Shown here: positions 2,315 through 15,274 of the stretch, in pieces
Layout of the letters: each line of letters begins with the position of its first letter
Position numbering within the stretch: the first letter of the stretch is position 1
Source of the DNA: Flavobacteriales bacterium
Lineage (GTDB): Bacteria > Bacteroidota > Bacteroidia > Flavobacteriales_C > GCA-002722245
Length of the DNA: 35,328 nt
Direction: 5' to 3'
Assembly (NCBI GenBank): GCA_947444925.1
Contig: CANFBW010000032.1
Coordinates: forward strand, 1-35,328
Notes under the pieces: model-generated
What the model was told of the DNA's origin: nothing
Database searches by the model: none
Seen by the model: the letters and a program-made list of their open reading frames with translations, nothing else
Position numbers and translations under genes: made by a program

Positions 2315-2869
2315 TTAATGCAGTGGAATTTCCTCAACCGGCGGAGGTACTTCTCCAGGAGAAGGTATTAAGCCAAATAAGGTTTCATCGATCAAATACA
2401 ATATTAAAAAGATCACCAAGAAAATCAGAAAGATAATCATCGTTCTCGCAAACTTCTTGAAGCTCTCTTGGTCTTTGTCTTTGGCTTTTGTTTTGGTAAC
2501 GCGTTTGATGTCATTTTGAACACGAATAAAAGCACTTTTGTTTTTCACCACATAGTCCACCGCGCCATACTTTACCGAATTCACCGCTACATCAATATCT
2601 TCTTGACCCGACAACATGATCACTTCTACATCGGGCGCTATTTGCTTGATTTCTTGAAGCACTTTGATGCCCGACATGGCATTGGGTTTCTCGCTATCTA
2701 AAAAGTAATCCAAAATGATGACATCGGGTTTCTTGCTCAGCGCCTTCAACACGTCTTCCCCTGTGGTAAAAGTTTTGATTGTAAAACTCTTATTTTGACT
2801 CAGGTTATGTACCGCCGTCTTTAAATACAAGTCATCATCGTCGACTAAGTAAATTAAAGTATTTGCCAT
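2315..2869 (-). CDS. Receiver-domain protein with C-terminal transmembrane anchor
   Basis: This 184-residue protein starts with a CheY-like receiver: an acidic pocket (VDDDD, residues 9-13), phospho-acceptor D54 in VIILDYF, S87 in MLSGQ and K109 in YVVKNK. All the residues needed for phosphorylation are present. After a lysine-rich linker (about 122-140) there is one strong hydrophobic helix (about 143-161), then a short tail rich in proline and acidic residues. There is no DNA-binding, GGDEF, PglZ or enzyme domain. By the positive-inside rule the receiver should be cytoplasmic and the tail periplasmic. It is the last gene of a kinase, hybrid kinase, Hpt and receiver run, which suggests it is the end acceptor of that relay. 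What it then controls is unknown; a membrane partner or a phosphate sink are both possible. Confidence 0.88.
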   Translation of the reverse strand: MANTLIYLVDDDDLYLKTAVHNLSQNKSFTIKTFTTGEDVLKALSKKPDVIILDYFLDSEKPNAMSGIKVLQEIKQIAPDVEVIMLSGQEDIDVAVNSVKYGAVDYVVKNKSAFIRVQNDIKRVTKTKAKDKDQESFKKFARTMIIFLIFLVIFLILYLIDETLFGLIPSPGEVPPPVEEIPLH

Positions 2870-2890: not shown

Positions 2891-3250
2891 TTAGTTCTGC
2901 AATTGTAACAATTCTTCTTTTAATTCCACCTCAGCCAAAGCATAAGCCACCACCATTTGGTCCAATAAAGCAGGAATTTTTTCCACTTCCTTGGCATTGA
3001 GACCACATTCCTGTAAAACTTTGCTCACCTCTACCATGTCATCCATGCCCATAAAAGAATAACTTGTTTTGAGTTTGTGCGCCACTCCGCCGATGATCTG
3101 CCAATCTTGCTTGACCAAACTGTCTTGCATTTTCTGAATGGATTCTGGCGTTGTTTTGATAAACGACTGAATAATATCTTCTATAAAATCTTTACTCCCA
3201 AGTGAAAGATCGTTTAAATAATTCAGATCAATGTGTTTGTATTTTCCCAT
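2891..3250 (-). CDS. Histidine phosphotransfer (Hpt) domain protein
   Basis: This is a stand-alone Hpt protein of 119 residues, predicted all-helical. The signature is around H58 (GGVAHKLKTS), the usual HxLK context of the phosphorylated histidine in Hpt four-helix bundles. A following SFMGM stretch also fits the family. It should shuttle phosphate between the receiver of the hybrid kinase just upstream (stop at 3263, 12 bases away) and the anchored receiver just downstream (start at 2869). Gene order and close spacing support one relay. A link to other receivers elsewhere in the genome cannot be excluded. Confidence 0.92.
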   Translation of the reverse strand: MGKYKHIDLNYLNDLSLGSKDFIEDIIQSFIKTTPESIQKMQDSLVKQDWQIIGGVAHKLKTSYSFMGMDDMVEVSKVLQECGLNAKEVEKIPALLDQMVVAYALAEVELKEELLQLQN

Positions 3251-3262
3251 TGTACAATTTCT

Positions 3263-5260
3263 TTATGCTTGCTTTTGTACCAACTTGGCTATTTTTTGTT
3301 TCAATTTATCTGGATTAAATGGCTTCAAAATATAATCATCCATTCCTGCCTCTAAATATTTATTATCGCTCGATTCCGTAAAGATGAAAGCGGTCATTGC
3401 CAAGATAGGTATATTTTTCTTGGGCTCCGGAAAATCTTTTCTGATGATCTTGGTCGCCTCAATACCGTCCATTTCAGGCATCATGATGTCCATTAAAATA
3501 ACATCAAAATCATTTTCCCTCAATTTTTCAAGTGCAATCATTCCATTTTCAGCAATCACGACCTCACAACCAAAATTATTCAACACCCGCTTTGCCAATA
3601 TTTGATTCAACTCGTTGTCCTCAGCCAGCAACACTTGAAGTTTACCCAACACAATATCTTTACCATCGTCTTCTTCTTTGGCCTGCACATTCGCTGCGCT
3701 TTCCTTAGGAAGTTTTAACGTCACGATGAATTTAGACCCTTTTTCAGGCTCACTAATCACCTTGATGTCGCCCTGCATCAAATCAACTAATTTTTTAACA
3801 ATGGTAAGTCCTAAACCTGTACCTCCATATTTTCGTGTAGTATCGCCTTTTGCTTGCGTAAAACTTTCAAAAATATCGCTGAGTTTGTTTGCGGGAATGC
3901 CAATACCTGAATCCTCCACAGTCATTTCCAACTGCACTTCCTTTTCGCTGTCATGTAGCACTTTCACCGCCAACTCCACCTTTCCCTTCGAAGTAAACTT
4001 AATCGCATTACTCATTAAGTTCAATAAAATTTGGTTCACACGAACTGAATCACCAATCACTTTCGCTGGCACTTCATCTTCAATGTTCAACACCAGCGAA
4101 ACACCCTTATCATCGGCACTTTGTTTTTGCAACTTCACCAGCTCTTTCAAAATAGTGCGCAAATCAAATTCAGAAGCCTCGATCGACATTTTCCCCGCTT
4201 CGATTTTAGAAAAATCTAAAATATCATTGATGATGACAATCAAATTTTCGCCTGAAATTTTTACCGACTCCAAACTGCTGCGCTGTTCATCGCTTAGTTC
4301 ACCTCTGAGCAGCAAGCCTGTAAACCCAATGATCGCATTCATTGGCGTTCTGATTTCATGACTCATATTGGCCATGAAATCTTGCTTCACTTTCACTGAA
4401 GCTTCGGCCACCCTTTTGGCTTCACCCAACTCCTTGTTAATGCGAACGAGATACGCCAAATTCTCACTCAACTTTCTTTCGGTTTGTTTTCGAATGGTAA
4501 TGTCTGCGCCATTTGCAAAACATTTACCATTCTTTACAATCAACTTCCAACGCATCCATTTCTCTGTTCCGTCGTTGCATTTCATTCTGTTTTCGAACAC
4601 AAAAATATCACTGTTGCTACCCAGCTCTTCCTGAATAATTTTTTTGGTTTCATTCACGTCTTCACTGTGAAAATACTGCACCAACGGAGTACCGATGACA
4701 CTCTCCACATTGTATCCTAACAATGTATAAAATGTTTGATTGACCTCTTCTACAACAAAACTATTCAGATCAAAAATACAAGTGATGTCCATGGAATTGT
4801 CGACCAAACTCGCCAAGTTTTCTTGGATCACATATTGTTCAGCCAATTCCTTTTGTTGCTGATACAGCTTTAAATAAGTACTCACCTTTGCCTTCGTAAT
4901 CTCAATATCCAAAGGTTTAAATAAGTAATCCACTGCACCAGTCTCGTAACCCTTGAGTACGTATTTTTGTTCCTTACTGATCGCCGTTACAAAAATGATG
5001 GAAATATTGGCTGTTCTTTTATTGGACTTCAATATTTCGGCCACTTCAAAACCATTCATTTCAGGCATTTGAACGTCGAGCAATATCAGTGCGATATCAT
5101 GGCTAATCGCCATTTTAAGGGCAGCCTTACCTGACGTCGCCTTCAAAAAATGACGCCCTTCTCCTTCAAGCAATTTTTCAAGTGCAAAGATATTTTCGCT
5201 CTTGTCATCCACCAACAAAATATTGGTAGGCACTATTTTATTTTGTAATTTCTTAAACAT
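3263..5260 (-). CDS. Hybrid sensor histidine kinase (REC-PAS-HisKA-HATPase-REC)
   Basis: This is a soluble hybrid kinase of 665 residues without membrane helices. Domains in order: an N-terminal receiver (DD at 18-19, D62 in [12 protein letters not shown]115 in LFKP); a PAS domain with PAC end (about 146-262); a HisKA domain with H301 in NMSHEIRTP; an HATPase with N-box near N418, DSGIGIP at 451-456 and GGTGLGL at 479-485; and a C-terminal receiver (ED at 547-548, D591 in [12 protein letters not shown]647 in LKPF). All catalytic residues are present. Its start overlaps the end of the upstream membrane kinase by eight bases, so translation is probably coupled. The N-terminal receiver may take phosphate from that kinase and control this one. 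The PAS ligand is unknown. Confidence 0.95.
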
Positions 5261-7685
5261 TTGTCAACGCATTTTTCAATTTCTCCATCAACACCTTTTC
5301 TTGCAAAGGAAGTGTGAGCACAAAAGAACCTGTTTCAATAGCGCTAATCCAAATCAGTAATGGAAACTCTTTTATTTTTTGTTTTTCGGCAAGCGACAAA
5401 TCTACATCTTCCACCAAACACAAATCCACATTTCCCTGACTCAATTTTTCCTGCAGTTCTTCCATGTCATTGGCATCGATAAGCGGCAACGCGTATTTAT
5501 CGAACAACGCACTCATTTGGTAAACATGCATGATGTCTTTGCTAAAAAAAAGTATATTACTGCCTTTTAGCGCCTTACAATGTTGGGCAGCAACAGCTCC
5601 GCCGTCTCCAATGATCCAAGTATTTTCTTTACTTGCTTGCACTTCGTTTTCATTGTTAGGCTCTTCGTATGCCACATAACTTGTTTCAATCGGAAAAACT
5701 ACTGTAAAAGTAGTCCCCTTACCTTCTTCACTTTTCAATTTCAATTCTCCATTGAGCAAATCCACCAATTTTTTGGTGATAGACAATCCCAGGCCTGTAC
5801 CTCCATATTGTCGACTGATAGAGCCGTCGGCTTGACGAAAGGCTTCAAACACTTGACTTTGTTTGTCCTTAGGAATGCCAATTCCCGTGTCAACGACATC
5901 AAAAGCAATGGCATCTTTGAAAATACCCAATTCCATTTTCTCTCTATCATCATCCATATCGCGCACCACCACGCGAACCTTTCCGCCTTTGGGCGTGAAT
6001 TTTATTGCATTAGAAATGATGTTTTTCAATATCTGCTCCAAACGCATTTTATCGGTTTGTAAGGCTTCTCGCTTCGTTTGAACTTCAAACTCAAGTTGTA
6101 CTCCTTTTTCATTCGCTATGGGCTTAAACAAAGGATGCAGATCATCAACAATCTCGACAAAGGAATGTTCGTTAATTTCAATGTCTAATCGCCCAGCCTC
6201 TATCTTTGATAAATCTAAAATATCGTTGATCAGCACCAGCAAACTATTGCCTGACTTGTGAATAACCATTGCCGAATCCACCTGATCCTTGGTGAGATTG
6301 CCAGGACCGTTGTCGGCCAATAATTTTGAAAGAATCAGCAAACTATTCAAGGGAGTGCGCAACTCGTGCGACATATTCGCTAAAAATTCAGATTTATAGC
6401 GATTGCTTTGCTTCAATTCTTCAACAGTATCTCTAAGTTCAACAGTGGTGGTTTTTAAAGAATCCTGCATATTGAGCAAAGCCAAACCCAAAGTGTCTTT
6501 GTCTCCTCTAATGTTCACCGGCACATCGTAGTTTCCCTTTCCGATCTTATTGGCAACCAAGGCGAGTTCATTGGTATTGTCGACCATGGAAAGAAAAGCC
6601 TTCGTTAATTCGCCAATAGAGTCGTTTGAAAAAACTTCGATTTCAATATCCGTGTCACCATTTTTAATTTTATTGGCTGCAGCGCCAAGCAAACGCATTT
6701 GATAATTAACGGAATTAATGGACAACAATACCCACAACACAACAAGCAATATTGTAGATGAAATCATGATCAATGATGCGTTAATTTTATCTTGCGCTGA
6801 TTTGTATTCTTCTTTGATCAAGTATTCTATTCCATGCAATGCCAATACTTCAATTTCATTAAGAATGTTGAGCGCACCTGTAGCGCTGATCCACCAATCT
6901 TCGGCGGTGTAGGTGTAGAGTCGGTCTTGAGGATGCTCAAAAGCATAGTCGGTCATCTCTAGCATTCGTGCCACATTACCATGGTAGAAATCGCGTTGAA
7001 AAACATCGTTGATCTCAGGAGAAGCCAATTTTAAAAATGATTTCAAATTGCTTTCAAAGGCGCCCTTCTGCCCAGCAAATTTACCGTAATCCAAATCTTC
7101 AAAACGCCCCATATCAAAGGCTTTATTGATGGTGGTACGCATTCTGCCCAACGATTCCTTTGTACGAATCAATGAAATATAGGCACGCATGGCTTCATTT
7201 GTTTTTTCAATCCCCGATGCCGTAGCAATGGACGCTATGCGCTCAATGAGCTGCTCTATCACGTTGGAATAATAAACATCGACTTCTTCTGATGACATTT
7301 GAAACCAACTAATTTTGCTGCGCACTTCTTTGATGTCACGGAATTCCTTAAAAAAATTAGTGTCGAGATGCGACTGTAAGGCATCTATTTTAATAGAGCG
7401 CACTATCGAATCGCTTTGGTTGATTTGCCCCACCAATTTGCTTTGAATCTCAAATATTGGATTGTTAATGTAGAGCACCGAATAATCTCGCTCCTTTTGT
7501 ATCTCGTGAACAACCACCGACATCAAATGGATTTCACTCGTCTTTTGTCGCACCACACCTAACTTTCGCTCGTTTTCGTAACCCATCAAGATCTTATCAA
7601 CCGAGAACCACGTAAGGATCAGCAAAGGAAAAAAAGCGGTAAGAAATAGTTTTTGCTTAAGACTAAGCCAATTAAAAAGCTGCAT
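5253..7685 (-). CDS. Membrane sensor histidine kinase with NIT-like sensor and degenerate receiver-like tail
   Basis: This 810-residue kinase has a first membrane helix at about 11-28, a helical periplasmic region (about 30-300) and a second helix at about 304-324. The motif [12 protein letters not shown] resembles nitrate/nitrite-sensing (NIT) domains, but the ligand cannot be read from sequence. HAMP-like segments follow (about 327-410), then HisKA with H440 in NMSHELRTP and an HATPase with N-box N559, DTGIGIP and GGTGLGL. After the kinase core, residues 688-808 look like a receiver fold in strand/helix rhythm ([10 protein letters not shown]) but lack a proper acidic pocket and conserved Lys. 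It is the first gene of the relay and overlaps the hybrid kinase. It should be the membrane input of the system. Confidence 0.93.
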
Positions 7686-8879: not shown

Positions 8880-9388
8880 TCAGCAATGATATAACGCACC
8901 ATTACAGCCATATCAAAGTAGCGCTGTGGAGCGCTTTCTGTATGTACAAATTCGTAGTTGGGACGAACTTGCGCACCAAGTGTAATGGGAACAAAACCGA
9001 GCTGATATTCTAATCCCAAAACAGCATCAATACCAAAGGCAGTATTTGCAGCTGCATAGCCATTAGAGACACTGAAGTCATTCCAGTAGCCAGCATGCAA
9101 ACCACCTCCAACCGACCACGATAAATTGGTCGTATGTAAAGTAGAAGCGTGAATTTCTTTGTGCAATTGATAAAGTGCAATGAGCACTCCACCATCTTGG
9201 GCAGTACCTGTGATACGGCTGTATAAAAAGTTGATCTCAATATTCTGCTCGGGCTGAATGAATTGCTTGTACGTAAGGCCAAAACCTTCTTTTCCTCCGA
9301 TCACCCCAAGGGCGGATCTGTATTGAGCGAAAACACTAGTCAGTGACACCGACATAAGAACCATCAATGAAAATCTTTTAAAAATCAT
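8876..9388 (-). CDS. Secreted beta-rich outer-membrane-type protein, function unknown
   Basis: This protein of 170 residues begins with a signal peptide (MIFKRFSLMVLMSVSLTSVFA, cleavage near residue 21) and continues as alternating short strands with many Gly and aromatic residues, ending in a terminal strand (DMAVMVRYIIAD). That is how small 8-strand outer-membrane barrels look. I preferred the ATG at 9388 because it yields a clean signal peptide; the frame upstream crosses the terminator hairpin and starts with TTG. It lies after the gldN terminator and so is likely a separate unit. I do not recognise a specific family and infer no function beyond location. Confidence 0.8.
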   Translation of the reverse strand: MIFKRFSLMVLMSVSLTSVFAQYRSALGVIGGKEGFGLTYKQFIQPEQNIEINFLYSRITGTAQDGGVLIALYQLHKEIHASTLHTTNLSWSVGGGLHAGYWNDFSVSNGYAAANTAFGIDAVLGLEYQLGFVPITLGAQVRPNYEFVHTESAPQRYFDMAVMVRYIIAD

Positions 9389-9418
9389 AGTTTGCGGATT
9401 GGGGGTTAATGCGAAACA

Positions 9419-9451
9419 AAAAAAAACTCCCCCGTGCGTACGGAGGAGTTT
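9419..9451 (-). terminator. Rho-independent terminator after gldN
   Basis: An 11-bp stem (AACTCCTCCGT with AACTCCCCCGT as the opposite strand, one mismatch) closes on a 4-base loop. On the minus strand it is followed by about nine T residues. It lies some 20 bases past the gldN stop and marks the end of the porP-gldKLMN run. Confidence 0.8.
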
Positions 9452-9471: not shown

Positions 9472-10314
9472 TTAATATTCCCAAAGATCTTGCTCTTTGT
9501 TGAAAATCTCATCTTTGATTTTCTTTGCTTCCAACAACAAATCCAAGTTGTTTTTGTACTCAACAATCTTTCTGTCGTAAACGTTGCTTTCTTTGATGAT
9601 GTAGCTACTGAACTGACGCTTCCAAAAAACATCTTCCAATGTTCTTCTTTCAGCATCGTTGTTGCGGTTGAACACTTCAATATTTACAAAGATCTCACGT
9701 GCTTCAGGAAAGTACACCCAAAACAAGGGGCTCTCTCCTCGATAGTTTCCTTCTTCGTCAAAACTTTCTTGCACTGGACAAATACCAATAATTCTTACTT
9801 CCAAAACTGATTTCTGCTTGTCGAAGAACCAGTCTTCTTTCAAACGATATCTTTTTACAGAAGATGGATCAAAAGGAATTACAATAGGCTTAGGAATAGA
9901 GTTACCATCGGCATCAAAGTCAAACAAAGTGTCGGTTTTAACCAACATAGCTTGAATTTCACTTGGCTCCAATTTCACTTTAAACTCATCGTCCATCGAG
10001 CTAAAAGCAGTCAAACCACTACCACCTTCTTGAACAGCATCAATAATAACTTGCGTTAAACTCCTTCTGTTGTTGATTTTTTCAGTAGGAAAATAAAGAG
10101 GGTGGTTGATCTTCTCTCTCAAGTCAATCACGCGCCAAACTCTTTTTGACCACATTACATCAGCCTCTCTCAAGGGAGTATATGGAATTACTTTTCTTGC
10201 GGTATGATGCTCAGGAACATAAACACCGTCCAAAACGTTTTGTCCGATTGAAGATGTATAGCATAGAACAGCCACCATCGCCATCAGCATCCATTTGTTC
10301 ATTACCTTCCTCAT
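9472..10314 (-). CDS. gldN: Type IX secretion system periplasmic ring protein GldN/PorN
   Basis: GldN is the periplasmic partner of the outer-membrane lipoprotein GldK; together they form the ring of the type IX secretion/gliding machine and contact GldM. The protein has 280 residues with a signal peptide (hydrophobic core about 7-19, end near ...SSIGQ). The family signature is the early VYVPEHHTARKVIPYTPLREADV followed by VWRVIDLREKINHPLYFP, which I recognise from GldN/PorN. The length fits. Position is also diagnostic: last gene after gldK, gldL and gldM, with 21 bases to gldM. A terminator follows. Confidence 0.96.
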   Translation of the reverse strand: MRKVMNKWMLMAMVAVLCYTSSIGQNVLDGVYVPEHHTARKVIPYTPLREADVMWSKRVWRVIDLREKINHPLYFPTEKINNRRSLTQVIIDAVQEGGSGLTAFSSMDDEFKVKLEPSEIQAMLVKTDTLFDFDADGNSIPKPIVIPFDPSSVKRYRLKEDWFFDKQKSVLEVRIIGICPVQESFDEEGNYRGESPLFWVYFPEAREIFVNIEVFNRNNDAERRTLEDVFWKRQFSSYIIKESNVYDRKIVEYKNNLDLLLEAKKIKDEIFNKEQDLWEY

Positions 10315-10335
10315 AGCTATCGCTTTTAAATAAAT

Positions 10336-11955
10336 CTAGTTTGCAGTAAGTGCAATGGTACCCAGTTTTCTTACAGAACCATCAGGCATTTTTGCTTTAA
10401 TGTTTTCAAAATAAACTTTAGTTCCTTTATTCGCAGCACTCAACAAAGACTTCATGTCGTTTGTCAAGCCCTCGCTTGTTGAAGACAAAGTTCTCAAGTC
10501 ACCTTTCAAATTCATCGTCAAGTCAAAAGAAACTACCGTTACCTTTAAGTCAAAATCAAAATTATCCATCTTCGCAATCACAGTAGAAACAACTTTCAAC
10601 TTTGCAGAGGCGATCAAACCACTTCTTTGCTGCATCACCTCGGCAACTGGATCGGGAAGGGTTTTCACACGAAACACCATTCCACCCAAGCGACCTCCAC
10701 CTTTTTTGCTCACAACAACTTCAACTCCCTTAGGATTTGGTACTTTTGCAGTAACTATGTATTCGCCTTTTTTTGCACTAGGGCTAATAGATAATCCCGA
10801 TGCAGCAACTTGTATACCGTCTAAAGCAACACCTGGAGCAGAAACTGACATTGGATTAGGAACACCAACATAAAACACGTTCATTTTAGTGGCGGAAATA
10901 GTAGCCGTAGGCTCAGCTACCATGTAAGATGAATGGTAGTTGTAGTAAGTGATTTTGTCTTTACCAGCGATTCTAATAACGCCTGCAACATCTTGCAAAC
11001 CTGGGCTAGAAGCACGTTCTCTCAACAAACCTTTTCCACCAAGGGATTTAATTTCCTTAAACGGTCCTTTGAACAAGGTATTGGTCTCTTCTTCTTTGTC
11101 GTTTTGCGTTTCGTATTTACCGCCAATGAATTTAGTGGTATCAACAACACCTGAAAAGATGCGAGGAGTAATGTCCTTGTTATAAGCTGCAATGAAAATA
11201 TCACCTTTGATAGAGTCACCAGTTAAAACGTAGGCAGGATTCATCACAGCCATACCATTAACAACGTTTACCACCATACCGTCACCTTCCAATGACACAG
11301 CAATTTTATCAATTACTTCGGTTTCAGCATTACGAACGTAGGTTTGAATCAATGTTAAGTTTGCCGTAGCAGCTGCCATCGGCAAGTGGTCAACCATTAA
11401 CGAAATCCACTCGTGATTGATGTCTTCAATAACGCTGTCTTTTGTAGCCAACATCTTGGCTAATCTCTTCATAAGCGGCTTGTCCTTCTTCACCAAATCA
11501 AGACCCAACAACATGTCCTTAAACTTGTTAAGGCTCGTTTTTAAACGCTCTGCCTTATCATTAGGGACATCGTTAAGAATGTAGTATCCAGCTGCCAATT
11601 CCTGATTGTCTTTTGCTAACGGAATTGAATCTTCATCACGACCACCAGATGAATTAACGATGTAATCTTTATCTTCTTGAATGAAGTTAAATATTTCATC
11701 GGCTTGTTTACTGATTTGTTTCGCAATAACATTCAGCTTCTTTGCACTTTCAATTTTCAATGCAGCACTAGCAATTGCTTTGTACGATTTTTCATTTTTG
11801 GCGGAGAAGTTCTTGTTTGTACTTCCAATACCATCTTCTAGCATAACGAAGGCATTTAATAAATCCTTCGATGCGTTCATCGCCAACATCGCCAAAAGTA
11901 CAAGGTACATTAAGGAGATCATTTGCTGGCGCGGACTGAGTTTCTCTGTTGACAT
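10336..11955 (-). CDS. gldM: Type IX secretion/gliding motor protein GldM/PorM
   Basis: GldM is the long periplasmic shaft of the proton-driven GldLM motor. Its single N-terminal membrane helix (about 12-32, MISLMYLVLLAMLAMNAS) packs inside the GldL ring, and the remainder crosses the periplasm to the GldKN ring. The protein has 539 residues, close to the family's usual 510-530. The N-terminal SPRQQMISLMYLVLLAMLAMN is highly characteristic. After it comes a helical D1 region (to about 220), then beta-rich Ig-like domains, matching known GldM architecture. Its start lies 56 bases after the gldL stop. Confidence 0.97.
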   Translation of the reverse strand: MSTEKLSPRQQMISLMYLVLLAMLAMNASKDLLNAFVMLEDGIGSTNKNFSAKNEKSYKAIASAALKIESAKKLNVIAKQISKQADEIFNFIQEDKDYIVNSSGGRDEDSIPLAKDNQELAAGYYILNDVPNDKAERLKTSLNKFKDMLLGLDLVKKDKPLMKRLAKMLATKDSVIEDINHEWISLMVDHLPMAAATANLTLIQTYVRNAETEVIDKIAVSLEGDGMVVNVVNGMAVMNPAYVLTGDSIKGDIFIAAYNKDITPRIFSGVVDTTKFIGGKYETQNDKEEETNTLFKGPFKEIKSLGGKGLLRERASSPGLQDVAGVIRIAGKDKITYYNYHSSYMVAEPTATISATKMNVFYVGVPNPMSVSAPGVALDGIQVAASGLSISPSAKKGEYIVTAKVPNPKGVEVVVSKKGGGRLGGMVFRVKTLPDPVAEVMQQRSGLIASAKLKVVSTVIAKMDNFDFDLKVTVVSFDLTMNLKGDLRTLSSTSEGLTNDMKSLLSAANKGTKVYFENIKAKMPDGSVRKLGTIALTAN

Positions 11956-12011
11956 GTTATAAGTTTCTTTAAGTTTTAGTTAAACTATTTAATTATCCTG
12001 TTCAGATAATA

Positions 12012-12815
12012 CTAACGAACAGTCATGGCAGACAACATGTTGCCATAAATAGTGTTCAACTTACTCAAGTTTTGACCCAAAACAGAGATTTCTTCTTTGT
12101 ATTTCTTAGTGTCTTCTACAGAAGAACTTAAGCTAATTAACAATTGGTTGATATTGTCAGAAACCTCAGTAGACAATTTCATGCTTTCGTTTGTTGAAGT
12201 AACTTGTTTAGCATAAACATCGTTCAACTCAGAAAGATTACGTGTCATTTTTGTCAATTCTTCTGCGTAAGAAGCACCAGTTCCTTTAAGGTCTGTTAAG
12301 TCTGTTAAAGCAACAGAAGCTCTTGAATAAGAATCAGAAAGTTTGCCCACATTTTCAGAAGCACCTTTGATTTTTTCAACAAATTCATTGCTAGCTGCAC
12401 TTGCGTTACCCAAGTTGTTCATGTTGCCAGCAGTGTCGCCCAAGTTTTTCATTCCTTTTCCTAAAGACTCCAACAATTCAGGACCGATATTCGCGTCCAT
12501 CAATAATTTATCTAATTTTTGAGAAATAGGATCCGTAGATTCCAACAATTCAGGAGCCTCTTCTTCATGCTCCTCATGTTCAGCGTGACCACCAGCCAAT
12601 TCAGGATAAGCTAAAGTCCAGTCAATATCCATGTGCGGCTCTTCAAATGCACCCATAACAAACAAAAACGCTTCTACTGACAAACCAGCTACAAGCATCA
12701 CTGACGCACCTGGCCAGTGTTGAATCTTGAACATCGCTCCTACAATTACAATCGCGGCACCAAAACCGGTCGCCATCATCTGAAATTTTTTCTTTTTAAA
12801 ACTCGCTCCTGACAT
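12012..12815 (-). CDS. gldL: Type IX secretion/gliding motor stator protein GldL/PorL
   Basis: GldL forms the inner-membrane pentamer that couples proton flow to movement of GldM. The protein of 267 residues has two membrane helices (about 13-29 and 37-57) joined by the hallmark FKIQHWPGA loop. E48 in the second helix (GLSVEAFLF) matches the protonatable Glu reported as essential in Flavobacterium GldL. A long cytoplasmic region follows, with an acidic His/Glu patch (AEHEEHEEEA, about 97-107) and predicted coiled-coil helices to the C-terminus, as expected. The gldK and gldM genes flank it in the same direction. Confidence 0.97.
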   Translation of the reverse strand: MSGASFKKKKFQMMATGFGAAIVIVGAMFKIQHWPGASVMLVAGLSVEAFLFVMGAFEEPHMDIDWTLAYPELAGGHAEHEEHEEEAPELLESTDPISQKLDKLLMDANIGPELLESLGKGMKNLGDTAGNMNNLGNASAASNEFVEKIKGASENVGKLSDSYSRASVALTDLTDLKGTGASYAEELTKMTRNLSELNDVYAKQVTSTNESMKLSTEVSDNINQLLISLSSSVEDTKKYKEEISVLGQNLSKLNTIYGNMLSAMTVR

Positions 12816-12862
12816 AAAAAATAGTTGTTAATAGGTTAAGTTAATGGACTAGTTGTTATTGG

Positions 12863-14224
12863 TTAATAAACTTGAGAATCATTCACGTCTCCTTTTTTGC
12901 GTCCAAGGTAGGTTTCAACGCATCTGAAGCCAACGTAACATTTTGAAGTATCTTGATATTCGTAAGTTCTTGCACCTGTTTGCATAAAGTAACCGATGTC
13001 TTTCCATGAACCTCCTCTGATTACTTTTCTTTTCAAGGCAGGTGCATCTGTTTCAGAAGCTTCGTACGAATAATCCATATTTAAATCGTGTGCGAAGTTA
13101 AAGGAAGATTCTTCGAAAGCATTACTTGTCCATTCTGCAACGTTACCTGACATATCGTACAATCCAAAACCATTTGGCCAGTAGTGCGCAACAACAATTG
13201 AATGCAAACCACCATCATCCACATAGTTTCCTCTTAAAGGCTTAAAGTTACCCAAGAAACATCCTCTGCTATTTCTGATATATGGACCACCCCAAGGATA
13301 AGGAGATTGATCATAACCACCTCTCGCAGCGTATTCCCACTCCGCCTCAGTAGGCAATCTAAAGTCGTTTACAATCGGTTGTTCCAAAACATTTGTTCTG
13401 TAGTTGTTCATCAACAAAGTTCTCCAAACGCAAAATGCTTTTGCTTGGTTCCAGTTAACACCTACAACTGGGTAGTGGTCGTATACCGGGTGCCAAAAAT
13501 ACATTTTGGTCATTGGTTCATTGAATGAATAGGTGAAATCATGCACCCACGCCAAAGTATCAGGATAAATGTTTACGATTTCACGCTTGATAAATTGAGA
13601 ACGGTCTGTAATTCCTTCGCCATAAGCATCAGGATAAGCCCAAGTTTCGAAAGTTCTTTCCTTTTTATCTTTTTCAGCATCGTCGTATTTATAGCGGTTC
13701 GCTTTTACAGAAGCTGTTTTAAAGTCGGTCCACCAATAAACATAGTTCAACCTTCTTGCATCAATTTGTTTGTTTTTGTAGAAACGCTCTGCTTCAGGCA
13801 AAAATAAATATGACAATGCCTCTACGTTTGCTTCAGCATCCCATTTAATTTTAACATCCCAATCAATATGCTCTCCATATTCTCCTGGAGTAATAACGTG
13901 GTCAGGATCAACTTCCGCCAATTTGAAATGGGCGATAGAATCTCTCACGTAATTCACAAATTGACGGTACTCGTCGTTCGTGATTTCTGTTTCATCAATA
14001 TAAAATGACTGTACCGAAACAACCTTTGATTGGGCTGTAGTGGCAAATGTAATCTCTTGATCACTTGGCCCCATATGAAACGCTCCTAAGGGAATGAATA
14101 ACATTCCAAATGGATCTTCCTGAAAAAATGGAGCTCTATTTGTGCCCACCAGCTCTCCTTTTGGACCGCTGCTGCAGCTGCTTATAGCTAATGCTACAAT
14201 AAAAAAGCAAAGAAACTTTTTCAT
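12863..14224 (-). CDS. gldK: Type IX secretion outer-membrane ring lipoprotein GldK/PorK
   Basis: GldK is an outer-membrane lipoprotein with a formylglycine-generating-enzyme-like (SUMF1/FGE-sulfatase) fold; it forms the periplasmic ring with GldN. I chose the ATG at 14224, which gives MKKFLCFFIVALAISSCSSG with a clear lipobox (Cys at residue 17) and 453 residues. In-frame Met codons at 14233 and 14254 would spoil the signal peptide. FGE-type motifs include ETEITNDEYRQFV early, RLPTEAEWEYAARGG in the middle and YDMSGNVAEWTSN and RGGSW near the end. A TACTTTTG box on the minus strand at 14291-14298 may be a -7 element for a secondary promoter, but no matching TTG sits at the right distance. 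132 bases separate it from porP. Confidence 0.96.
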   Translation of the reverse strand: MKKFLCFFIVALAISSCSSGPKGELVGTNRAPFFQEDPFGMLFIPLGAFHMGPSDQEITFATTAQSKVVSVQSFYIDETEITNDEYRQFVNYVRDSIAHFKLAEVDPDHVITPGEYGEHIDWDVKIKWDAEANVEALSYLFLPEAERFYKNKQIDARRLNYVYWWTDFKTASVKANRYKYDDAEKDKKERTFETWAYPDAYGEGITDRSQFIKREIVNIYPDTLAWVHDFTYSFNEPMTKMYFWHPVYDHYPVVGVNWNQAKAFCVWRTLLMNNYRTNVLEQPIVNDFRLPTEAEWEYAARGGYDQSPYPWGGPYIRNSRGCFLGNFKPLRGNYVDDGGLHSIVVAHYWPNGFGLYDMSGNVAEWTSNAFEESSFNFAHDLNMDYSYEASETDAPALKRKVIRGGSWKDIGYFMQTGARTYEYQDTSKCYVGFRCVETYLGRKKGDVNDSQVY

Positions 14225-14356
14225 ACTTAACATATTTAATTTTAATGTACGCATCTTATATAAACTTCAATTCAACAATGCAATTATATTCAAAAGTAAC
14301 AACATGTTCACAAAATATTCCGACAAAACATCTTTTATCGTCGGTCAAACTTTTTT

Positions 14357-15274
14357 TTACAACCACGTCACGTCCTTGTATACAGGAGGTTTCGGAGGCG
14401 TTGGCGGCTTCATGCAATAAGCCAAATAAATTTCATGAGTGCCTTGACTTCCACCGACTTTCGGCTCTTTCAAACCATTGGTAGTAAAGTCATAAGCATA
14501 ACTAATACTCAAATCACCTACCTTATATCCAACCAATGCTGCAACAGCATCTTGGTAACGGTAAGTTACCCCAGCAAAGATTTTCTGATTCCACTCTGCA
14601 AGTGCGTTAACGTCAAATTGAGGAACAGTACCATCTGATTTAATCAAAAATGAAGGTTTCAACAACCACATTGGATTCATTTGATAGTTGTAACCCCCTG
14701 TTATATAGTAGTGTCTTCTAATATGAGTTTCCGAAGTACCACCTATGATTACCTTTGATTCCAATAATTTTTGAGAACTAACGCCAAAATACAAACTTGG
14801 ACTCTTGTAAAAAACACCTACACCAACATCTGGTGTCATTGCACTACCCACAGCAATTGAGGCATCGCCAGCATCAACAGCTTTAAATCCTGGACTATAA
14901 CCCTTATTTATAATACCTGCATCAATACCGAGGCCTAATTTTCTTCCATTTTTCAAATCGGCATGAAAAGAGTAGCTTGCTTTCACACTTACATCATTTG
15001 CTTGACCAGCTTGGTCGGCAATTGCTGTAATTCCAAAACCATTTTGACGCGCAAAGGGCATTGAAAAGTTCAAAACACCCGTTTTCGGAGCCCCAGTAAA
15101 CCCAACCCATTGGTTTCTCATGGTCAATCCAACGCAAATTTTATCGTTGATCGCAGTTGCTCCTGGGTTAAAAGTTTGGTTGTTAAAAAAGAAGTGGGTA
15201 AGCTGCGCATCTTGCTGTGCTACAGCAGAAGTCATCATTGCAGAGACTGCTAAAAAAAGTAATATTTTCTTCAT
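14357..15274 (-). CDS. porP: PorP/SprF family type IX secretion outer-membrane protein
   Basis: PorP/SprF proteins are outer-membrane barrels that work with the type IX machine; in known cases they anchor or help export specific surface proteins such as adhesins. The protein has 305 residues, with a signal peptide ending near ...SAVAQ, directly followed by the family signature QDAQLTHFFFNNQTFNPGATA and LTMRNQWVGFTGAP. The body alternates Gly- and aromatic-rich strands. The gene directly precedes gldKLMN, the order described for porPKLMN in Porphyromonas. An upstream TTG-N21-AAATTTTG near 15340-15375 could be a promoter, though the match is weak. Confidence 0.93.
   Translation of the reverse strand: MKKILLFLAVSAMMTSAVAQQDAQLTHFFFNNQTFNPGATAINDKICVGLTMRNQWVGFTGAPKTGVLNFSMPFARQNGFGITAIADQAGQANDVSVKASYSFHADLKNGRKLGLGIDAGIINKGYSPGFKAVDAGDASIAVGSAMTPDVGVGVFYKSPSLYFGVSSQKLLESKVIIGGTSETHIRRHYYITGGYNYQMNPMWLLKPSFLIKSDGTVPQFDVNALAEWNQKIFAGVTYRYQDAVAALVGYKVGDLSISYAYDFTTNGLKEPKVGGSQGTHEIYLAYCMKPPTPPKPPVYKDVTWL

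Follow-up and report, generated by a model that had tools for sequence, protein, structure and literature searches.

The window analyzed here is a stretch of 35,328 nucleotides from a Flavobacteriales bacterium (assembly GCA_947444925.1, contig CANFBW010000032.1, positions 1 to 35,328), and near its start lies an operon of four minus-strand genes that follow one another with short gaps or overlaps. In order, these encode a NIT-sensor histidine kinase, a REC-PAS-HK-REC hybrid kinase, a stand-alone histidine phosphotransfer (Hpt) protein and a protein of 184 aa in which a receiver (REC) domain is followed by a single transmembrane (TM) helix. We refer to this final gene product, our main subject, and to its relatives as REC-TM. 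Its open reading frame (2315..2869, minus strand) runs from an ATG start at 2869 to 2315 and has orthologues in six related genomes.

The operon and the domain layout of REC-TM

The receiver domain of REC-TM comprises residues 1–126 (2492..2869, minus strand) and is of the NtrC class. Residues 6–110 match the Pfam Response_reg profile at an E-value of 1.2e-17, above the cut-off, and the domain has the acidic pocket (D10/D11), the phospho-acceptor D54, the Thr/Ser position (S87), Y106 and the conserved Lys (K109), with D11, D54 and K109 invariant across 56 relatives. The residue after K109 is Asn in the window protein, at a position where Pro is usual. Following the receiver are a variable, charged linker with net positive charge ahead of the membrane (residues 127–139; 2453..2491), the TM helix (residues about 140–162; 2384..2452) and a Pro/Glu-rich tail (residues 163–184; 2318..2383) that is predicted to be periplasmic and disordered, all on the minus strand. 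The TM helix has a hydrophobic core at residues 143–161 (Kyte–Doolittle value 2.89), and its assignment is consistent with both the structure model and the positive-inside rule as applied to the family. An earlier note on this DNA, made from its letters alone, had described an intact receiver with D54, S87 and K109, a basic linker and one strongly hydrophobic C-terminal helix, and each of these features was confirmed.

REC-TM has only this one TM segment, about 22–23 residues from its C terminus, and no N-terminal TM segment. It thus has the features of a tail-anchored protein, that is, a single C-terminal TM helix, no N-terminal signal and a predicted cytosolic N terminus, the topology being read only from charge bias. 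Searches of Pfam, NCBIfam and PHROGs gave nothing beyond the receiver, which agrees with the earlier note's view that no soluble effector follows it. The lack of an effector is as in single-domain response regulators, which are, however, soluble; because of its C-terminal TM helix REC-TM is a membrane-anchored variant rather than a plain member of that group. Nor is it a sigma-54 activator of the NtrC type, as Pfam detected no AAA+ Sigma54_activat domain, or a PorX protein, as the NCBIfam PorX model matched the receiver only, at 37.6 bits (1.1e-9) against an equivalog cut-off of 300 bits.

An AlphaFold2 model made with 56 sequences (mean predicted local distance difference test score, pLDDT, 88.5) has a standard receiver from which one unbroken helix, residues 113–160, extends as alpha5, linker and TM segment. 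The pLDDT was about 90–97 over the TM part of this helix and 60–69 over the tail, which was modeled as coil. The closest solved receivers, by both sequence and fold, are those of NtrC, NtrX and NtrC1. In the NtrC class, extensions of alpha5 play a role in dimer control. We considered a coiled-coil dimer linker for REC-TM and set it aside, as the heptad-like pattern in the alpha5-linker region was slight (0.304 versus 0.275, standard deviation 0.012).

The Hpt protein (119 aa; 2891..3250, minus strand; Pfam Hpt 2.4e-9) is encoded 21 bases upstream of REC-TM, and its phospho-accepting His is placed at H58 by an AHKLK motif. Upstream of it lie the genes for the soluble hybrid kinase, which has the Pfam domain order REC-PAS-HisKA-HATPase-REC (665 aa; 3263..5260, minus strand), and the membrane kinase, NIT-HAMP-HisKA-HATPase (810 aa; 5253..7685, minus strand; Pfam NIT 8.3e-27; TM segment 305–323), the latter overlapping the gene that follows it by 8 bases. 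The Hpt and hybrid kinase genes place REC-TM at the putative end of a phosphorelay, a context that the earlier note had overlooked. The last 120 residues of the NIT kinase (window 5253–5618, minus strand) have no Pfam match and resemble a degenerate receiver, with an IVEDV-like strand; of the parts of this kinase that were measured, they evolve fastest (identities of 56, 55, 35 and 22%). Further upstream, window positions 9472–15274 (minus strand) contain gldN, gldM, gldL, gldK and a PorP/SprF gene.

The genes for the receiver, Hpt and hybrid kinase were found in the same order in four further genomes of the genus and in two of a sister genus, and the NIT kinase was also present in those relatives where the contig reaches it, split in one assembly. 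In the sister genus the four-gene cassette is kept and both flanks are changed, with no adjacent gldKLMN and no ilvD downstream. This difference in flanks indicates that the conserved unit is the four-gene cassette itself.

Conservation, family and origin

Comparison of the window proteins with the six orthologues (four from the same genus, two from the sister genus) revealed marked differences between the parts of REC-TM. Its receiver was 97, 93, 90, 85, 72 and 67% identical to theirs, compared to 82, 80, 73, 73, 49 and 50% for Hpt and 83, 79, 77, 76, 63 and 62% for the hybrid kinase core. Within the genus the REC-TM receiver exceeds every other domain of the operon, and in the sister genus it is as conserved as the receivers of the hybrid kinase. 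In contrast, the TM helix was 87, 83, 57, 39, 13 and 13% identical. Codon comparison with the four same-genus orthologues gave ratios of nonsynonymous to synonymous change (pN/pS) of 0.03–0.10 for the receiver, 0.18–0.29 for the linker, 0.10–0.52 for the TM helix and 0.36–0.92 for the tail. The reading frame is under purifying selection in the receiver, linker and TM helix, and more weakly in the tail.

Family searches covered 100 relatives, 295 genomes of the class, 296 of the phylum and a genome-contig collection, which was scanned with a five-member profile as a 17-member diverse profile was too divergent. After redundancy filtering 72 REC-TM proteins remained, and the anchored architecture is conserved well beyond the window genome. 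The whole architecture is kept in the four same-genus and two same-family orthologues. Our tree alone includes REC-TM proteins from no fewer than 17 family codes within the class and a single one beyond it, as well as from named metagenome-assembled genomes (MAGs) of Cytophagales, Chitinophagales, Bacteroidales and Flavobacteriales. A match in a “Deltaproteobacteria” MAG (L129, a 3.5 kb contig) is nearly identical to one from Bacteroidia and is probably misbinned. The median maximum hydrophobicity of 97 REC-TM proteins was 2.69, and at the same loci it was 1.07 for stand-alone receivers, 1.09 for other short receivers and 1.21 for NtrC-type proteins. The distribution is bimodal, and although the classes were set with a cut-off of 1.7, the evidence lies in the gap between the modes and not in the split itself. 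REC-TM is a real, widespread family in Bacteroidota.

The mean charge in the 72 proteins was +2.8 before the TM helix and +0.3 after it, and was higher before the helix in 58 of them and the reverse in seven. Because positive charge is in excess before the helix, a cytoplasmic receiver is predicted. The Pro- and Glu-rich tail that the earlier note had pointed to is indeed present in the window protein, 23 residues after the TM core, but is not a family feature: tails are 22–29 residues long in the window's genus and 49 in the sister genus, and the family median is six residues after the TM core. A tail motif, FGL-P-P, is common to the two genera. The genome from which the window comes holds further REC-TM-like genes. 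These are L004 (G000:C7), with atypical sequence where the D-Y-x-x-K region is expected, L007 (also G000:C7), whose open reading frame is short at the N terminus, and L002 (G000:C4), which encodes 175 aa with a weaker hydrophobic end and adjoins an Hpt gene.

The TM cores of the 72 family members resembled one another about as much as did composition-matched shuffles (likeness of 0.233 and 0.226, respectively), and they were not enriched in small-xxx-small or GxxxG motifs. As judged from these sequences, what is constrained in the TM helix is its hydrophobicity and not its sequence. Such a near-neutral sequence with retained hydrophobicity fits an anchor, and it makes the receiver surface the likely site of interaction. 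Non-specific contacts between TM helices may nonetheless occur. The earlier note had suggested that the membrane helix is itself the effector. Given the neutrality of the TM sequence, including the 13% identity in the sister genus, this suggestion was not supported, and we rejected a sequence-specific TM effector as the leading reading.

Linkage to Hpt extends through the family. Genomes usually have two to five Hpt domains, and 25 of the 35 REC-TM genes considered were within 5 kb of one (≤5 kb), where 0.39 were expected from Hpt density. This expectation presumes a uniform gene distribution, whereas signaling genes tend to be clustered, and some of the 35 are orthologues or tandem copies rather than independent cases. 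The ratio therefore overstates the independent evidence, but the effect is still large. Among 62 REC-TM loci, an Hpt was found within ~7 kb in 38 and a kinase in 44. As expected for a terminal phosphorelay receiver, then, REC-TM is encoded together with a hybrid kinase and an Hpt protein, an arrangement kept in relatives and enriched family-wide.

On the tree, a supported branch (100/97) separates REC-TM, a set of stand-alone receivers and the Bacteroidota sigma-54 regulators from ordinary receivers having K-P at the conserved Lys. In the 92 REC-TM cases read, the residue after K109 was N, S, G, D, E or T, and P did not occur; four short receivers counted as non-K-P fall on the ordinary K-P side. 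The TM state changes nine times on the tree, with at least six changes forced by supported branches. A single origin of the REC-TM form was therefore rejected, and gains and losses are mixed, their direction not being fixed by the tree. For two REC-TM proteins the supported sister is a REC-SpoIIE phosphatase at the same locus (L147:1778–3172 and L148:8948–10204), which indicates that outputs have been exchanged. The expectation in the earlier note that homologues would neither lack the helix nor continue into a known effector held for the orthologues, all of which keep the helix. It did not hold for paralogous close homologues, which are either receivers only, without the helix (up to 49% identity), or carry SpoIIE. 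More distant homologues carry a sigma-54 AAA+ domain, as in the neighboring-clade proteins L186 and L200.

Soluble relatives with distinctive C termini were also noted. Sister receivers of 144–155 aa (L163, L166, L171, L180, L189–L192, L195, L198, L200), from Chryseobacterium, Flavobacterium and relatives, have a conserved basic/aromatic C-terminal peptide, e.g., KLKGFRKFFSILF, that resembles an amphipathic membrane-binding helix. Their genes lie mostly near 8950–9430, and the neighboring genes encode an HK-REC-Hpt kinase and a sigma-54 regulator. A further soluble class (L142, L144, L146, L155 and L156 at 8971–9411; L080–L089) has a conserved KELNWYMERM-like C-terminal peptide, and in L142–L156 the genes directly follow an HK-REC-Hpt kinase gene.

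Proposed role of REC-TM

On balance, we think it probable that REC-TM is the inner-membrane-anchored terminal receiver of a His-Asp-His-Asp phosphorelay, and that it signals via its receiver surface to a putative membrane or membrane-proximal target. In this scheme the NIT-domain sensor kinase, the soluble hybrid kinase or both would supply phosphate to the C-terminal receiver of the hybrid, from which it would pass to H58 of Hpt and then to D54 of REC-TM. Phosphorylation would switch the alpha4-beta5-alpha5 face of the receiver, which alpha5, running unbroken into an N-in/C-out TM helix, would keep on the cytoplasmic face of the membrane. The helix would serve as an anchor and orienting rod rather than as a sequence-specific effector. 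For its output, the phosphorylated receiver would make protein–protein contact with a target in or close to the membrane, one whose gene is not among the neighbors of the operon.

Several points weigh against this proposal. The transfer from Hpt to D54 is a putative step, and the Hpt proximity is subject to the uniform expectation and the non-independent genes described above. In roughly one in four REC-TM loci neither a kinase nor an Hpt lies nearby, partly through contig ends, and the close homologues that lack the TM helix suggest that the protein's basic function may not require the anchor. In addition, no target is genetically linked. On the other side, a point in favor of the proposal is that among the 62 loci no neighbor other than two-component genes recurred widely; a recurring non-signaling neighbor was rejected as a candidate target. 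The exception was htpG, which is close to eight orphan loci (L150, L153, L154, L161, L162, L164, L073 and L074), most of them without an adjacent kinase or Hpt. In L150, L153, L154, L161, L162 and L164 it starts ~90–140 bases downstream of REC-TM.

An unlikely, though not negligible, alternative is that REC-TM is a membrane-held phosphate sink that draws phosphate from Hpt or returns it, and so tunes the signal to another receiver (e.g., a sigma-54 activator or a DNA-binding regulator) while having no target itself. Several loci do have more than one candidate receiver per Hpt. A short stand-alone receiver is present in 22 of the 62 loci, a REC protein of 215–275 aa in 17 and two or more REC-TM genes (≥2) in 13, and there is a precedent in DifD, a sink receiver in Myxococcus that is considered next to EpsW (PMC12802240). 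However, in the window operon and the same-family orthologues REC-TM is the sole stand-alone receiver after Hpt, and a sink would neither need a membrane anchor nor have to present the most conserved surface of the operon.

Somewhat less likely still, in our judgment, is a transmembrane switch in which phosphorylation dimerizes the receiver and turns or pulls the alpha5-TM helix, signaling either to a TM partner or to a periplasmic partner of the tail, a sharper form of the earlier note's idea. It would fit the rigid single helix of the model from alpha5 through the TM segment, the closeness to the NtrC, NtrX and NtrC1 receivers, the slight heptad-like pattern, and a tail that looks conserved in the window's genus and shares FGL-P-P with the sister genus. 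Against it, TM sequences differ as shuffles do and are without dimer motifs, and the window linker is very charged. Moreover, most family members have a short tail or none, which usually leaves nothing readable on the far side of the membrane.

We regard as improbable a role as local controller of the type IX secretion system (T9SS)/gliding motor, with REC-TM contacting GldL or GldM in the manner of PorX and PorL. The response regulator PorX is a binding partner of PorL (PMC5005315), and an action on the motor has been suggested for its CheY-like domain (PMC10951265). In the window gldK, gldL, gldM and gldN lie 1.8–6.6 kb upstream on the same strand, and this linkage is kept in three more genomes of the genus. 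It is absent, however, in the sister genus, where the cassette is located elsewhere, and in the rest of the family except for one GldK-like match in L128, and REC-TM is without the PorX effector domain. As a general function the gldKLMN link was thus rejected, being confined to the window's genus. That the helix merely co-localizes the receiver with a membrane-bound sensor kinase is the least plausible reading. The operon does start with a membrane-bound kinase, but soluble kinases predominate in REC-TM loci, and a TM helix in the nearest kinase was not significantly linked to one in the receiver (13/50 versus 5/36, Fisher p 0.19, with many loci truncated).

A broader and tentative idea is that Bacteroidota use membrane tethering as an output class of its own. 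The NtrC-class, Hpt-fed clade, marked by K-N/S/G/D and not K-P, may have swapped outputs repeatedly among a TM anchor, an amphipathic C-terminal peptide, a sigma-54 AAA+ domain and a SpoIIE phosphatase, with REC-TM possibly relaying the phosphorelay signal to inner-membrane machines via a rigid alpha5-TM rod.

Comparison with known systems

No Pfam or NCBIfam model names the REC-TM architecture, and the open-access literature gave no description of membrane-anchored response regulators of this type, subscription papers and curated regulator lists being outside the scope of the search. The family is apparently undescribed. Response regulators are catalogued by output domain, and a receiver with a terminal TM helix can easily be filed among the stand-alone receivers, its tail left unexplained. 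If our proposal is correct, Bacteroidota end a multi-step phosphorelay at the inner membrane rather than at DNA, and the neutral TM helix and highly conserved receiver surface indicate where a search for the target should focus.

REC-TM resembles single-domain regulators of the CheY, Spo0F and DivK kind, among which is MrrA of Caulobacter (PMC5964349), in that the receiver is the only folded domain and the output would be protein contact or phosphotransfer. The likeness to EpsW of Myxococcus xanthus is of interest as this single-domain regulator acts on a membrane enzyme, activating a glycosyl transferase by direct contact (PMC12802240). REC-TM differs from these proteins in having a C-terminal helix that fixes it to the membrane and in belonging to an NtrC-class Bacteroidota clade with K-N/S/G/D replacing K-P. 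NtrC and NtrX have the nearest solved receivers, and the sigma-54 regulators of Bacteroidota belong to the same clade and likewise have the K-N motif, but REC-TM has a TM helix in place of the AAA+ and DNA-binding domains. PorX (CheY-PglZ), a regulator of the T9SS, is also from Bacteroidota and its receiver acts at the inner membrane; the NCBIfam match to it is weak, at the level of the receiver and far under the cut-off, and REC-TM has no such effector domain and instead has a membrane anchor and an Hpt-fed operon. An output domain with a membrane anchor, MetOD3, is listed for archaeal proteins in a response-regulator census (PMC5847659) and is comparable to REC-TM in this anchoring. Overall, the parts of REC-TM are each known from other systems, and what is new is their combination, its spread and its link to a phosphorelay.
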